Part shown: positions 7,069 to 10,890 of the stretch, one piece after another
Layout: each line of letters begins with the position of its first letter
Position numbering within the stretch: position 1 is the first letter of the stretch
Origin: Defluviitaleaceae bacterium
GTDB lineage: Bacteria > Bacillota > Clostridia > Lachnospirales > WRBF01
Direction: 5' to 3'
Length of the DNA: 64,000 nt
Assembly (NCBI GenBank): GCA_009784685.1
Contig: WRBF01000003.1
Coordinates: forward strand, 1-64,000
The notes under the pieces: model-generated
The model's database searches: none
What the model saw: the letters and a program-made list of their open reading frames with translations, nothing else
What the model was told of the DNA's origin: nothing
Made by a program: the position numbers and the translations under genes

Positions 7069-8346
7069 CTATGCTGCTTGTGGTCTTATCTGTTGCAGCG
7101 TGATTCTTAGCGAAAATATCCCTTCATCAACTACGGTTTCCATGTAACCGCTGTATCTATCTACAGCGTCTTGTATGCTTTCCATACCTAAACCATGACC
7201 GGGTTCGTTTTTTATACTTTGGAAAAATCCGGTTTGTTTTGCTACAGGAGCAATTACAAATGTGTTATCAATCCTTATATCTAAATGTTCATCATAACGA
7301 AATGTTATATTGATTCTTTTTTCCGATGCGTTTACTCTTTCACAAGCCTCTATCGCATTTTCCAACCCGTTTCCGATTATGGTTACTATATCAATTGGAT
7401 CAACCCAACGCATTTGCAACGGTAAAATACCGATTACGCTAAATGTAATTCCCTTTTCCTGCGCTTTCTTCTGTTTTGGAAATAAAATGCAGTCAATATC
7501 ATAATTGCCTGTTATCAAATTAGAAAAGCGGTTTAAGCGCAGCAGCCGGGCTGTATATTCATGCACATCTTCAATAGTCGTTAACGTTGATAAATATTCA
7601 ATATGATGGTACGAATCATGAGCTAACATATCCCTCTGGCGAATTATTATTTCCCTTTCTTCTATCCACTGCTTTTTAAACCATGTGGTTTCTTGCGCTG
7701 TTCTTAGCTGTTTATCCAGAAGCCTTTTTTCCTCTTTGTGTTGGAGAAAACCTACCATAAATACGCAGGTTAAAAAGCCTAGCATGGCAAATACCAGCAT
7801 TCGTCCGAATGCTTCGTTATTGTCGAAATTTGTGCCGTAGATCCAGCTAAGAATAGCAAATATACCAAGTGGGATGGGCATATATTTCAGCCATCTTGAA
7901 ATGTAAAGATCGGAATATCTAATCTTTAAAAACAGCAAAGCAGACATAGTCAAAAACAATTTATGCAAAGAGTATGCTGCATATCTATGGGTTATGTTTT
8001 CTAATGAAGGGGTTTCTCCAAAAACTAACGATACTGTTACTACCGCAACAATCTCGAAGCACAATGTGATAGTGCAATAAATAATCAGCAAAGCAGCTTT
8101 TTTCTTAATATTTTGGTGATAGCATAAAATAAATATCAATACAAGAACAATTATAGTTAAAAAAATACTTGACAAGGCTTCTATATCGATAACTTCAACT
8201 ATTACCCGCCTTACTACTTGTGAGCCAATGAATATTGAATAGATAAATGCTTGGTGAAATCTCTTATCAAGTAGTCTGTTTGCAACAAAAGCTAAAAGAC
8301 AGTATTCAATTGATAAAAATATCATACCAATAATTATAACATCCAT
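7069..8346 (-). CDS. agrC-like: AgrC-like sensor histidine kinase (GHKL type)
   Basis: This 425-residue protein has about six membrane helices in residues 1-205, then a cytoplasmic kinase part. The likely phosphoacceptor is His243 in AHDSYHHIEYL. The ATP-binding lid carries the N-box IGNGLENAIEAC and the G-box GHGLGMESIQDAV, the pattern of HPK10 kinases that sense cyclic peptides. The start has AGGAG eight bases upstream. It is divergent from two AgrD-like genes and near a LytTR regulator and AgrB, which supports a role as receptor for the modified peptides. Ligand choice between the two peptides cannot be read from sequence. Confidence 0.88.
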   Translation of the reverse strand: MDVIIIGMIFLSIEYCLLAFVANRLLDKRFHQAFIYSIFIGSQVVRRVIVEVIDIEALSSIFLTIIVLVLIFILCYHQNIKKKAALLIIYCTITLCFEIVAVVTVSLVFGETPSLENITHRYAAYSLHKLFLTMSALLFLKIRYSDLYISRWLKYMPIPLGIFAILSWIYGTNFDNNEAFGRMLVFAMLGFLTCVFMVGFLQHKEEKRLLDKQLRTAQETTWFKKQWIEEREIIIRQRDMLAHDSYHHIEYLSTLTTIEDVHEYTARLLRLNRFSNLITGNYDIDCILFPKQKKAQEKGITFSVIGILPLQMRWVDPIDIVTIIGNGLENAIEACERVNASEKRINITFRYDEHLDIRIDNTFVIAPVAKQTGFFQSIKNEPGHGLGMESIQDAVDRYSGYMETVVDEGIFSLRITLQQIRPQAA

Positions 8347-8476: not shown

Positions 8477-8617
8477 GTGAACCCATTTATTCAATGGATA
8501 TCCGGCTTGCTAATTAGCATGACAGCTATGACTTTGAGTTTCCCTTGGCCAGGAACAGGTTGCTCATTTTTTGTCCACCAACCGAAAGTACCAAACAAGC
8601 TTCGTGAAAAGGAATAA
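8477..8617 (+). CDS. agrD1: AgrD-like cyclic peptide precursor 1
   Basis: A 46-residue pre-peptide starting at GTG 8477, with an ideal AAGGAGGAGG six bases upstream. An amphipathic N-terminal helix (VNPFIQWISGLLISMTAM) is followed by FPWPGTG, then Cys29 and the ring candidate CSFFV, then a charged tail HQPKVPNKLREKE. This is the three-part layout of AgrD: membrane leader, thiolactone peptide, recognition tail cut by AgrB. A Cys-to-residue-33 thiolactone of five residues is predicted. The second copy at 8876-9016 has the same length and the same Cys position. A 30-codon extension upstream is open but lacks a ribosome binding site and is rejected. Confidence 0.88.
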   Translation: MNPFIQWISGLLISMTAMTLSFPWPGTGCSFFVHQPKVPNKLREKE

Positions 8618-8689
8618 TTCGTGCTAATTAGTCACCTCTAACCGAGTTTATATATTTTTAATGCGAATCAAGGGTTGCATAGAATCACT

Positions 8690-8762
8690 GTCATTGCGGG
8701 CTCGACCCGCAATCTCATCAATTCAATTTGCTTACAAGATTGCGGATCAAGCCCGCAATGAC
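8690..8762. mobile_element. Small inverted-repeat element between the agrD genes
   Basis: The left arm TGTCATTGCGGGCTCGACCC... (8690-8716) and the right arm ...CAAGCCCGCAATGACA (8736-8762) are 27-bp inverted repeats with few mismatches around a 19-bp AT-rich centre. The arms share their core with 5837-5861. It is non-coding and looks like a miniature inverted-repeat or palindromic repeat inserted into the spacer of the duplicated agrD cassette. On RNA it would fold as a strong hairpin and could end the agrD1 transcript. Confidence 0.7.
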
Positions 8763-8790
8763 AAAAGTTTATTTTTTGGCTCTTGATTGG

Positions 8791-8847
8791 CGTTTTTAAG
8801 TCGAGGTTATACTCGCTTTTCTTTTTTTCATTAATTCAAGCTATAAT
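8791..8847 (+). promoter_or_regulatory. Promoter of second agrD, repeat copy 2
   Basis: TTTTTAAGTCGAGGTTATAC starts at 8793, with TATAAT at 8842-8847, 39 bases after the conserved GAG (8803). It also shares an ATTCAAG block just before the -10 with copy 1. The similarity covers about 57 bp and includes no coding sequence, which argues for conserved regulation or recent duplication. Confidence 0.6.
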
Positions 8848-8875: not shown

Positions 8876-9016
8876 GTGCATCAATTTATTCAATGGGTAT
8901 TTGAACTCCTGATAAATGCAACTGCCGTGGCTTCGGGTGCTCCTTGGTGGGGAAATGGTTGCACACTTTTTATTCATCAACCCAAAGTACCGGATAAGCT
9001 CCGCAAAAAAGAATAA
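8876..9016 (+). CDS. agrD2: AgrD-like cyclic peptide precursor 2
   Basis: A 46-residue paralogue of the first pre-peptide. It starts at GTG 8876 behind GAGGAAAGG; GTG 8867 is a possible alternative adding three residues. Leader VHQFIQWVFELLINATAV is followed by PWWGNG, Cys29, ring candidate CTLFI and tail HQPKVPDKLRKKE. The tail is almost identical to copy 1 while the ring differs (CSFFV against CTLFI). Both should therefore be processed by the same AgrB but yield different signals. It lies downstream of its own promoter copy. Confidence 0.87.
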   Translation: MHQFIQWVFELLINATAVASGAPWWGNGCTLFIHQPKVPDKLRKKE

Positions 9017-9052
9017 CCCTTGCGGTCAATAACCGACCTTTACTGAGTTTAT

Positions 9053-9111
9053 TCGCTTTAAAACAGAGTTTGTATTTATTTTTGCTCTTATGCGTTTTTT
9101 GCAGATATAAT
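9053..9111 (+). promoter_or_regulatory. Third agr-type promoter, in front of a non-coding region
   Basis: CGCTTTAAAACAGAGTTTGT (9055 on) and TATAAT (9106-9111) repeat the pattern of the two agrD promoters, with the -10 again 40 bases after the GAG at 9066. No AgrD-like or other convincing reading frame follows. The next 270 bases fold into several hairpins. In Staphylococcus the second target of AgrA is the RNAIII promoter, and this site is in a comparable place. Confidence 0.55.
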
Positions 9112-9117
9112 CCCACT

Positions 9118-9381
9118 TATCTTGATTATGTTAGATTATAAGAAGTTGATATGTTTAAGGGGACAGTGCGTCTTTTCATGCGCTACCAAGGATACATTCC
9201 GTTATTGAGGGGGGCTCATTAAAGGGTATACCTTGGCAACAGCATAAAAAGCTCCGCCGAGGTGAGCTTATAAGTAGTGGCGGACATCCGAACCATCATC
9301 ACTTTTTGTCAAAGCGGAGGCTGTAAGATTGCCCGTTTACAAAGATGTTTGAATGATCAAGATGTTCGTCACTACTTTTTT
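9118..9381 (+). ncRNA. Candidate RNAIII-like structured RNA
   Basis: Non-coding, about 264 bases from the expected start to a T6 run (9376-9381). Visible pairings are AGTGCG/TGCGCT (9165-9184 with G-U pairs), and CCAAGGATAC with GTAT-A-CCTTGG (9186-9195 with 9226-9236), enclosing TGAG-GGGGG-CTCA (9206-9218). Further pairings are AAGCTC/GAGCTT (9249-9269) and a closing AAGTAGTG (9272-9279) with CACTACTT (9370-9377). It ends 25 bp before the convergent response regulator gene. A 61-codon frame inside it (9277-9462) has no ribosome binding site and would cross the terminator. The exact ends are inferred. Confidence 0.5.
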
Positions 9382-9405
9382 CCATCAGCCACTATGCAAT
9401 ATGCA

Positions 9406-10239
9406 CTAAAAAGCACTAGCCAAACCTTTCAAAAGAGAATGGTCTTTGTAATTGGATGCTAAATCGGCAGATGTACTTTTGAGTTCCCTTCCTGAGTATA
9501 CAGTATAAGTTGTTGAAGAGTCCATCGGAAGCATTGAATGACGGTATCTTGAATATTCAGCTAAAACACTGGTTATGCGGAGTTCTCCAACTGTAATTTT
9601 TTTCCCATTAATCAAAAGAGCAGTTTTATCTCTTCTGTCTATGCTTACAACATGGCGAAGATTAACCAAGCATGATTTATGAGTGCGGCAAAACCCTTTA
9701 TCGGACAAAAATTTTTCTAATTGTCCAATAGGATGGTTATATCTGTAATAAGTCACAGCGGTATGTACATGTAACATGCTGCGGTAGCTTTCTATGTAAA
9801 GTACGTCTTTTAGTGGAACAAACGCCATAGCTTCCTTTGCTTGAATACGAAGCATTTCGCCTATGTCCTCGTTTGCAATCAGCCTGGCACGAGTAACCTC
9901 TGCGCTAAGCCTTTCTTTATCAATAGGTTTTATTAAGTAGTTCGACGGTCGGATTTCAAAGCTTCTTAGGGCATAGTCTCTATGATTAGTCGTAATTATA
10001 ATTTGGGTATTAGGGTTGGTTGACTGCAATTCACGGGCAGTTTCAATTCCGTTTAGCATAGGCATTTCAATATCAAGCAGCAGTAAATCCATAGGATAAG
10101 GCATATTATTTATATCATCTAACAAGTCTGAACCGTTTGAGTAAGTCGATATACGGTCACATGGTTGAGCGATACTTTGTACTGTACTTTCAAGAGCAAG
10201 CCTGTATTTAGCTTCGTCATCACATATGCCAATCCACAT
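9406..10239 (-). CDS. agrA-like: LytTR-family response regulator (AgrA-like)
   Basis: This 277-residue protein has an N-terminal receiver domain (acidic CDDE near the start, phosphoacceptor Asp about 56 in LLLDIEMPMLNGIE, and a KP near residue 108) and a C-terminal LytTR DNA-binding domain. Features of the latter are VLYIESYRSMLHVHT, FCRTHKSCLVNLRHV and NGKKITVGE. It is the expected partner of the AgrC-like kinase, though it lies apart from it on the far side of the agrD genes. It is divergent from agrB with an 84-bp gap. A tail of about 30 residues after the LytTR fold is extra compared with AgrA. Confidence 0.88.
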   Translation of the reverse strand: MWIGICDDEAKYRLALESTVQSIAQPCDRISTYSNGSDLLDDINNMPYPMDLLLLDIEMPMLNGIETARELQSTNPNTQIIITTNHRDYALRSFEIRPSNYLIKPIDKERLSAEVTRARLIANEDIGEMLRIQAKEAMAFVPLKDVLYIESYRSMLHVHTAVTYYRYNHPIGQLEKFLSDKGFCRTHKSCLVNLRHVVSIDRRDKTALLINGKKITVGELRITSVLAEYSRYRHSMLPMDSSTTYTVYSGRELKSTSADLASNYKDHSLLKGLASAF

Positions 10240-10323: not shown

Positions 10324-10890
10324 TTGATTGAGAGCCTAGCTAACAGAATCAGCTTATATTACGTGCGAAACAACATGGTAAAAGAAGATGACCGAGAAGT
10401 TATTTCTTATATGTTGTTTCTTATATTTTCTAACGTACAGCAAATTCTGGCTTTTATCGCCGTAGCATTTATTTTTAATGCTTTCCCACAAACGATAGCA
10501 TTTGCTGTCTTTTTTGCTGTGTTAAAAAATCAAGCGGGTGGTGCTCATTCAAATAAACATTGGGTATGTTTTGTAGTAACAACAAGCTTAGCTTTCATTG
10601 TATGTTTGTTAAGTACAATGTTTACATTTCCTACATTTGTACCCATTATTGCTTCGATGATTATGCTGCTGATTGTTGTTCTTAAAGCACCGATAATTCA
10701 TCCAAACAACCCTAAAACTCCCAGAAGGCAAAAGATTATGCGGAGAAATTCCATCTTTATCGCCATATCTCAATGTTTCTTAATAGCAATCTTTACCCTG
10801 TTCCTGCCGATTTTAGCATTACCTAGCGCACTAGGCAGTCTAACGTCAGCATCTACATTGTTATTTCCTGTACCGGAAAACGAAAGCTAA
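10324..10890 (+). CDS. agrB: AgrB-like peptide-processing membrane protease
   Basis: This 188-residue membrane protein starts at TTG 10324, six bases after AAGGAGAG. It carries the AgrB signature QAGGAHSNKHWVC with His75 and Cys82, the same His-plus-seven-Cys spacing as the catalytic pair H77/C84 of S. aureus AgrB. AgrB removes the C-terminal tail of AgrD and forms the thiolactone. About four to six membrane helices surround the motif. Only one agrB is present, so it probably serves both precursor peptides. Confidence 0.92.
   Translation: MIESLANRISLYYVRNNMVKEDDREVISYMLFLIFSNVQQILAFIAVAFIFNAFPQTIAFAVFFAVLKNQAGGAHSNKHWVCFVVTTSLAFIVCLLSTMFTFPTFVPIIASMIMLLIVVLKAPIIHPNNPKTPRRQKIMRRNSIFIAISQCFLIAIFTLFLPILALPSALGSLTSASTLLFPVPENES

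Follow-up and report, generated by a model that had tools for sequence, protein, structure and literature searches.

A complete agr-type quorum-sensing locus in the window (the whole 64-kb stretch of DNA analysed here) contains, beside its peptide-precursor genes, an additional agr promoter copy, P3, that leads into a candidate agr-controlled small RNA of about 264 nt (9118..9381, plus strand; predicted start about 9118, end in T6). The locus, its promoter copies, their uniqueness and the fold are read directly from the sequence. We consider it likely that P3 makes a plus-strand RNA ending near 9381, and on balance we favour that RNA being a trans-acting regulator under quorum control. It probably works like the staphylococcal RNAIII, although on present evidence it does not belong to the RNAIII family.

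The locus encodes all components of an agr circuit. Profile searches identified an AgrC-like GHKL histidine kinase (7069..8346, minus; PF14501, 1.8e-16), two agrD genes, an AgrA-like response regulator with receiver and LytTR domains (9406..10239, minus; PF00072, 4.9e-18; PF04397, 8.9e-17) and the peptide-processing protease AgrB (10324..10890, plus; PF04647, 6e-33), so the kinase, precursor, regulator and protease genes all stand at a single locus. Both precursors are 46 aa long: agrD1 (8477..8617, plus) encodes a cyclic-peptide precursor scoring 23.4 bits on TIGR04223 (cut-off 19), and agrD2 (8876..9016, plus; start possibly GTG 8867) scores 27.2 bits. Their cores differ (FPWPGTGCSFFVHQP and APWWGNGCTLFIHQP), possibly giving two peptides that share one receptor, or an agonist and an antagonist. 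On the NCBIfam AgrA profile the regulator reaches 30.9 bits against a cut-off of 400, making it AgrA-like and not the staphylococcal equivalog; we presume that it activates the promoters of the locus. The same genome, assembled to 1.5 Mb and 77% complete, carries two further agr-type loci, on contigs C5 and C36. The agrD of the C36 locus is preceded by AATTATTCCA repeats with a spacing of 22 bp, and TACAAT follows them after 39 nt; at the C5 locus, AgrB is paired with a receiver-type regulator in which a LytTR domain was not obvious by eye.

P3 shares its design with P1, the promoter of agrD1. Each of these intact promoters has a pair of half-sites exactly 21 bp apart and TATAAT 40 nt past the second half-site. 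The dual site of P1 (8362..8428, plus) comprises GAGTTCATG (8362) and GAGGTTGTA (8383); the predicted tandem LytTR half-sites of P3 (9045..9074, plus) are GAGTTTATT (9045) and GAGTTTGTA (9066), with the -10 box at 9106..9111 (plus). No match to a -35 element was found for P3; LytTR/AgrA/VirR-type promoters likewise combine a -10 with two direct half-sites spaced by about two helical turns and have no good -35. The original prediction correctly named the GAG half-site and the -10 but missed the upstream half-site, so that the promoter starts at 9045 and not at 9053. Likewise, the 40-nt interval from GAG to TATAAT that it ascribed to all copies holds at P3 (9066/9106) and agrD1 (8383/8423) but is 39 nt at agrD2 (8803/8842).

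Pattern searches upheld P3 as a third copy of the agr promoter. A pattern drawn from the agrD promoters only finds P3 at 3 mismatches in 26 positions and otherwise just P1. None of 100 shuffles produced a match at the level of P3, and the best matches in random 64-kb windows had 5-8 mismatches. Across the whole assembled genome, the dual site with a TTTNAA spacer has two matches, P1 and P3; with the spacer bases dropped, the next matches appear at 2-3 mismatches, which is the control level. Because these whole-genome patterns were derived from P1 and P3 jointly, the zero mismatches of both arise by construction, and the independent tests are the shuffles and random windows searched with the agrD-only pattern. 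Within its half-sites, P3 has three bases that deviate from the agrD consensus. As a predicted promoter copy, it could hardly be better supported by sequence alone.

P3 has stayed intact while a neighbouring agrD promoter was broken. P2, the promoter of agrD2 (8644..8847, plus; -10 at 8842), has half-sites at 8644 and 8803 that are parted by a MITE insertion (8662..8799; 138 bp including a 7-bp target duplication, TTTTTAA). The MITE has matching terminal inverted repeats and an inner inverted repeat at 8689-8763, and the genome holds about eight near-full-length copies, this one included, plus dozens of fragments. Joining the P2 flanks without the MITE yields GAGTTTATATATTTTTAAGTCGAGGTTATACTCG, in which the half-sites are again 21 bp apart, indicating that the three tandem units once shared the same promoter design. 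Only P1 and P3 are intact today. That the RNA promoter survives where an agrD promoter does not weakly suggests that P3 is not dispensable.

By their layout, P1 and P3 agree with the LytTR class. When repeats identical at 9 of 10 positions and followed by a -10 were tallied over about 40 agr loci of the order, their spacing peaked at 21 bp (11, versus about 2.5 at other spacings), and most of the 18 dual-site promoters inspected across the order stand before agrB, agrD or agrA. The Clostridioides difficile spoZ promoter has the same 21-bp interval between its essential Gs, at -51 and -72 (PMC10602386). If transcription starts at 9118 as predicted, the second G of each GAG in P3 lies at about -50 and -71, and the geometry of P3 would equal that of spoZ to within about one base. 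Two agr loci of relatives also combine dual-site promoters with long leaders, one (L110, 211-626) of 337 nt before agrA and the other (L102, 6789-6550) of 181 nt before a secreted-looking protein.

The candidate RNA is predicted to be structured. Its minimum free energy is -80.9 kcal/mol (z -3.56), and 0 of 200 shuffles were as stable. A 5' stem-loop, H1 (9120..9160, plus; firm stem at 9121-9159; pair probabilities mostly >0.9), precedes a second stem-loop, H2 (AGTGCGT/ATGCGCT; 9165..9184, plus; P about 0.7). The stems first described for this interval are present, including the TGAG-GGGGG-CTCA hairpin with its G5 loop (9206-9218, plus; P about 0.98), the stem CCAAGGATAC/GTAT-A-CCTTGG around it (9186..9236, plus; P 0.45, about half of the ensemble) and the T6 at the end. 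An alternative hairpin, ACCTTGGC/GCCGAGGT (9224..9269, plus; P 0.54), competes with the enclosing stem, so that the predicted ensemble holds two central stems that exclude each other. Strongest of all is a 17-bp terminal hairpin (9272-9288/9361-9377) followed by T6 (9376-9381), a probable long-loop terminator (9272..9381, plus); it is the longer of two such matches on the plus strand of the window, and the 72 nt it encloses are unusually long for a terminator. An antiterminator pairing, UCCGCC/GGCGGA, was rejected, the terminal stem having a pair probability of ~1.

This terminal hairpin could also belong to an agrD1-agrD2 transcript, as part of a structured 3' UTR with a common terminator, leaving P3 a duplicated, unimportant promoter remnant. 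The stretches separating agrD1, agrD2 and the RNA showed no recognisable terminator, so read-through from P1 would stop at 9381, and much of the folding signal lies in the terminal hairpin (z -4.5 for the 3' half versus -1.1 for the 5' half). Against this reading, P3 retains both half-sites at their proper distance and its TATAAT is perfect, while an insertion interrupts P2, and 264 nt is long for a terminator. We regard this 3' UTR as unlikely.

The predicted transcript appears to be non-coding, as initially proposed: 9118-9381 holds no convincing open reading frame (ORF). The only listed ORF of at least 30 aa that starts within it on the plus strand (GTG 9277, 61 aa) continues across the terminator and lacks an evident ribosome site. 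An RNA serving mainly as mRNA for a very short peptide, delta-toxin-like or a third signal peptide, is improbable. One such frame, MFKGTVRLFMRYQGYIPLLRGAH (9151-9222, 23 aa), is open and its product cationic/hydrophobic, and S. aureus RNAIII, which encodes a peptide, offers a precedent, although the embedded delta-toxin is absent in S. lugdunensis and S. saprophyticus (PMC3673130). The frame has a poor ribosome site, though, and its start is buried in H1. Locally aligned with the two agrD units, the RNA did not score above shuffles at the DNA or protein level, which counts against the peptide reading and led us to reject a decayed third agrD.

Assignment to the plus strand rests on the promoter and the T-run, not on folding energy. 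The reverse complement of 9118-9381 has a z of -6.1 versus about -3.5 on the plus strand, so energy alone cannot settle the strand. A structured RNA on the minus strand would belong to the agrA mRNA as its 3' tail, the coding region ending at 9406 on that strand, and would display a C5-loop hairpin. The higher minus-strand z is not proof of such an RNA, because it partly reflects base composition, with fewer G and U for random wobbles, and because H1, H2 and the terminal stem contain wobble pairs that form on the plus strand only. With promoter and T-run both on the plus strand and no terminator recognised on the minus strand, we give the minus-strand RNA a low probability. Very improbable is a cis-acting antisense device in which P3 transcription meets or pairs with the agrA transcript coming from the opposite direction and any read-through would run into agrB: only 25 nt separate the RNA end (9381) from the agrA stop (9406), and C. 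difficile SpoZ is antisense to a neighbour, but here the terminator precedes agrA and no overlap with its coding region is predicted.

The plus-strand RNA from P3 has no detected homologue among the genomes searched. Membership of the RNAIII family found no support, as Rfam gave no RNAIII match at the gathering score in the window, nor at E up to 1 in 9040-9410. A known RNA family was rejected: the sole sub-threshold Rfam match is a minus-strand one that falls short of its gathering score, and we take it as chance. BLAST found no homologue in 56 relatives, and a covariance model found none in 392 genomes of the order, where two E-values near 0.006-0.01 are chance at that scale. Agr loci located through AgrB in 392 genomes of the order and 391 of the class likewise held none; a LytTR scan of genome contigs returned distant matches only, and in viral contigs three exact 16-mer matches do not extend. 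Nor did BLAST or covariance searches find a copy in the genome's own C5 and C36 agr loci. The RNA is single-copy in its genome, unlike the neighbouring MITE, and a multi-copy mobile element was rejected. The relatives returned for comparison included no genome from the same family; for a fast-evolving small RNA in a lineage without close relatives compared, missing homologues are expected and are weak evidence either way.

Predicted duplexes did not single out a target. The best of 51 leaders in the window paired at -43.2 kcal/mol, versus -41.4 +/- 2.5 kcal/mol for shuffled RNA, which is not above chance. The original contrast between a G-rich loop and the C-rich loops of RNAIII is correct on the plus strand, but is uninformative about targets.

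We infer transcription, regulator dependence, base-pairing function and timing of the candidate RNA. In the model that we favour, the agr system is self-contained, and one promoter type would serve two kinds of output: a small RNA alongside the precursors encoded by agrD1 and agrD2. AgrB would mature the AgrD peptide or peptides, and the AgrC-like kinase would sense them. The phosphorylated LytTR regulator would then bind the two half-sites, spaced by 21 bp, ahead of a -10 without a -35. At P1 this would yield more peptide; at P3 it would yield the RNA, ending at its own hairpin and T-run. Given its three half-site deviations from the agrD consensus, P3 may fire after P1, much as the S. aureus P3 fires later than P2. 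The RNA would most likely be diffusible and pair with mRNAs, as RNAIII and VR-RNA do, and may also affect agrA, whose mRNA tail faces it. More tentatively, RNAIII-type wiring may have an independent origin outside Staphylococcus, in which tandem duplication placed an agrD promoter in front of an unrelated RNA; the bistable centre of that RNA would be a switch.

Resemblance to RNAIII lies in arrangement. Like RNAIII, the candidate RNA gene stands beside agr with its own copy of a LytTR-type agr promoter, and in both cases the RNA promoter is the more diverged copy. The RNAIII-like reading stands for the promoter copy, the structured unit with its own terminator and the AgrA-like neighbour, but not for family. 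Unlike RNAIII, which measures 514 nt, the candidate is about 264 nt long, has no Rfam match or good peptide ORF, exposes a G-rich instead of a C-rich loop on the plus strand, and is co-directional with agrD (RNAIII is divergent) in a different agr gene order. The S. aureus P3, the RNAIII promoter, carries a two-base substitution (PMC3673130).

Regulatory RNA output from clostridial LytTR systems has precedents, contrary to the novelty first claimed for it. In C. difficile, the LytTR regulator RgaR activates both agrB1D1 and the small RNA SpoZ through repeats 21 bp apart; in C. perfringens, VirR activates VR-RNA, VirT and VirU (PMC10602386). As presumed for our candidate, one LytTR regulator in C. 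difficile serves an agr peptide gene and a small RNA. Compared by promoter layout and description, the two differ in that the candidate sits within the agr locus, whereas spoZ and agrB1D1 are separate RgaR targets; SpoZ, at about 560 nt, lies antisense to a neighbouring small ORF, and RgaS-RgaR does not sense AgrD1 (PMC10602386). According to work published in 2013 on the agr locus of C. difficile, an RNAIII divergent transcript had not been identified there (PMC3754575). The C. perfringens RNAs share with the candidate a LytTR regulator, paired direct repeats and a regulatory RNA product, and VirS is a proposed receptor for an agr-type peptide; yet they are not described as agr-locus RNAs, and VirR does not activate agrB1D1 (PMC10602386).

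What appears to be new is a small RNA within a non-staphylococcal agr locus on a duplicate agrD promoter; we found no description of a small RNA inside such a locus in the open-access literature. If transcribed as predicted, it would give an agr locus outside Staphylococcus a built-in RNAIII-like arrangement. Together with SpoZ and VR-RNA, it would then seem that LytTR quorum sensors recruit unrelated small RNAs repeatedly, with promoter duplication as one route to such recruitment.
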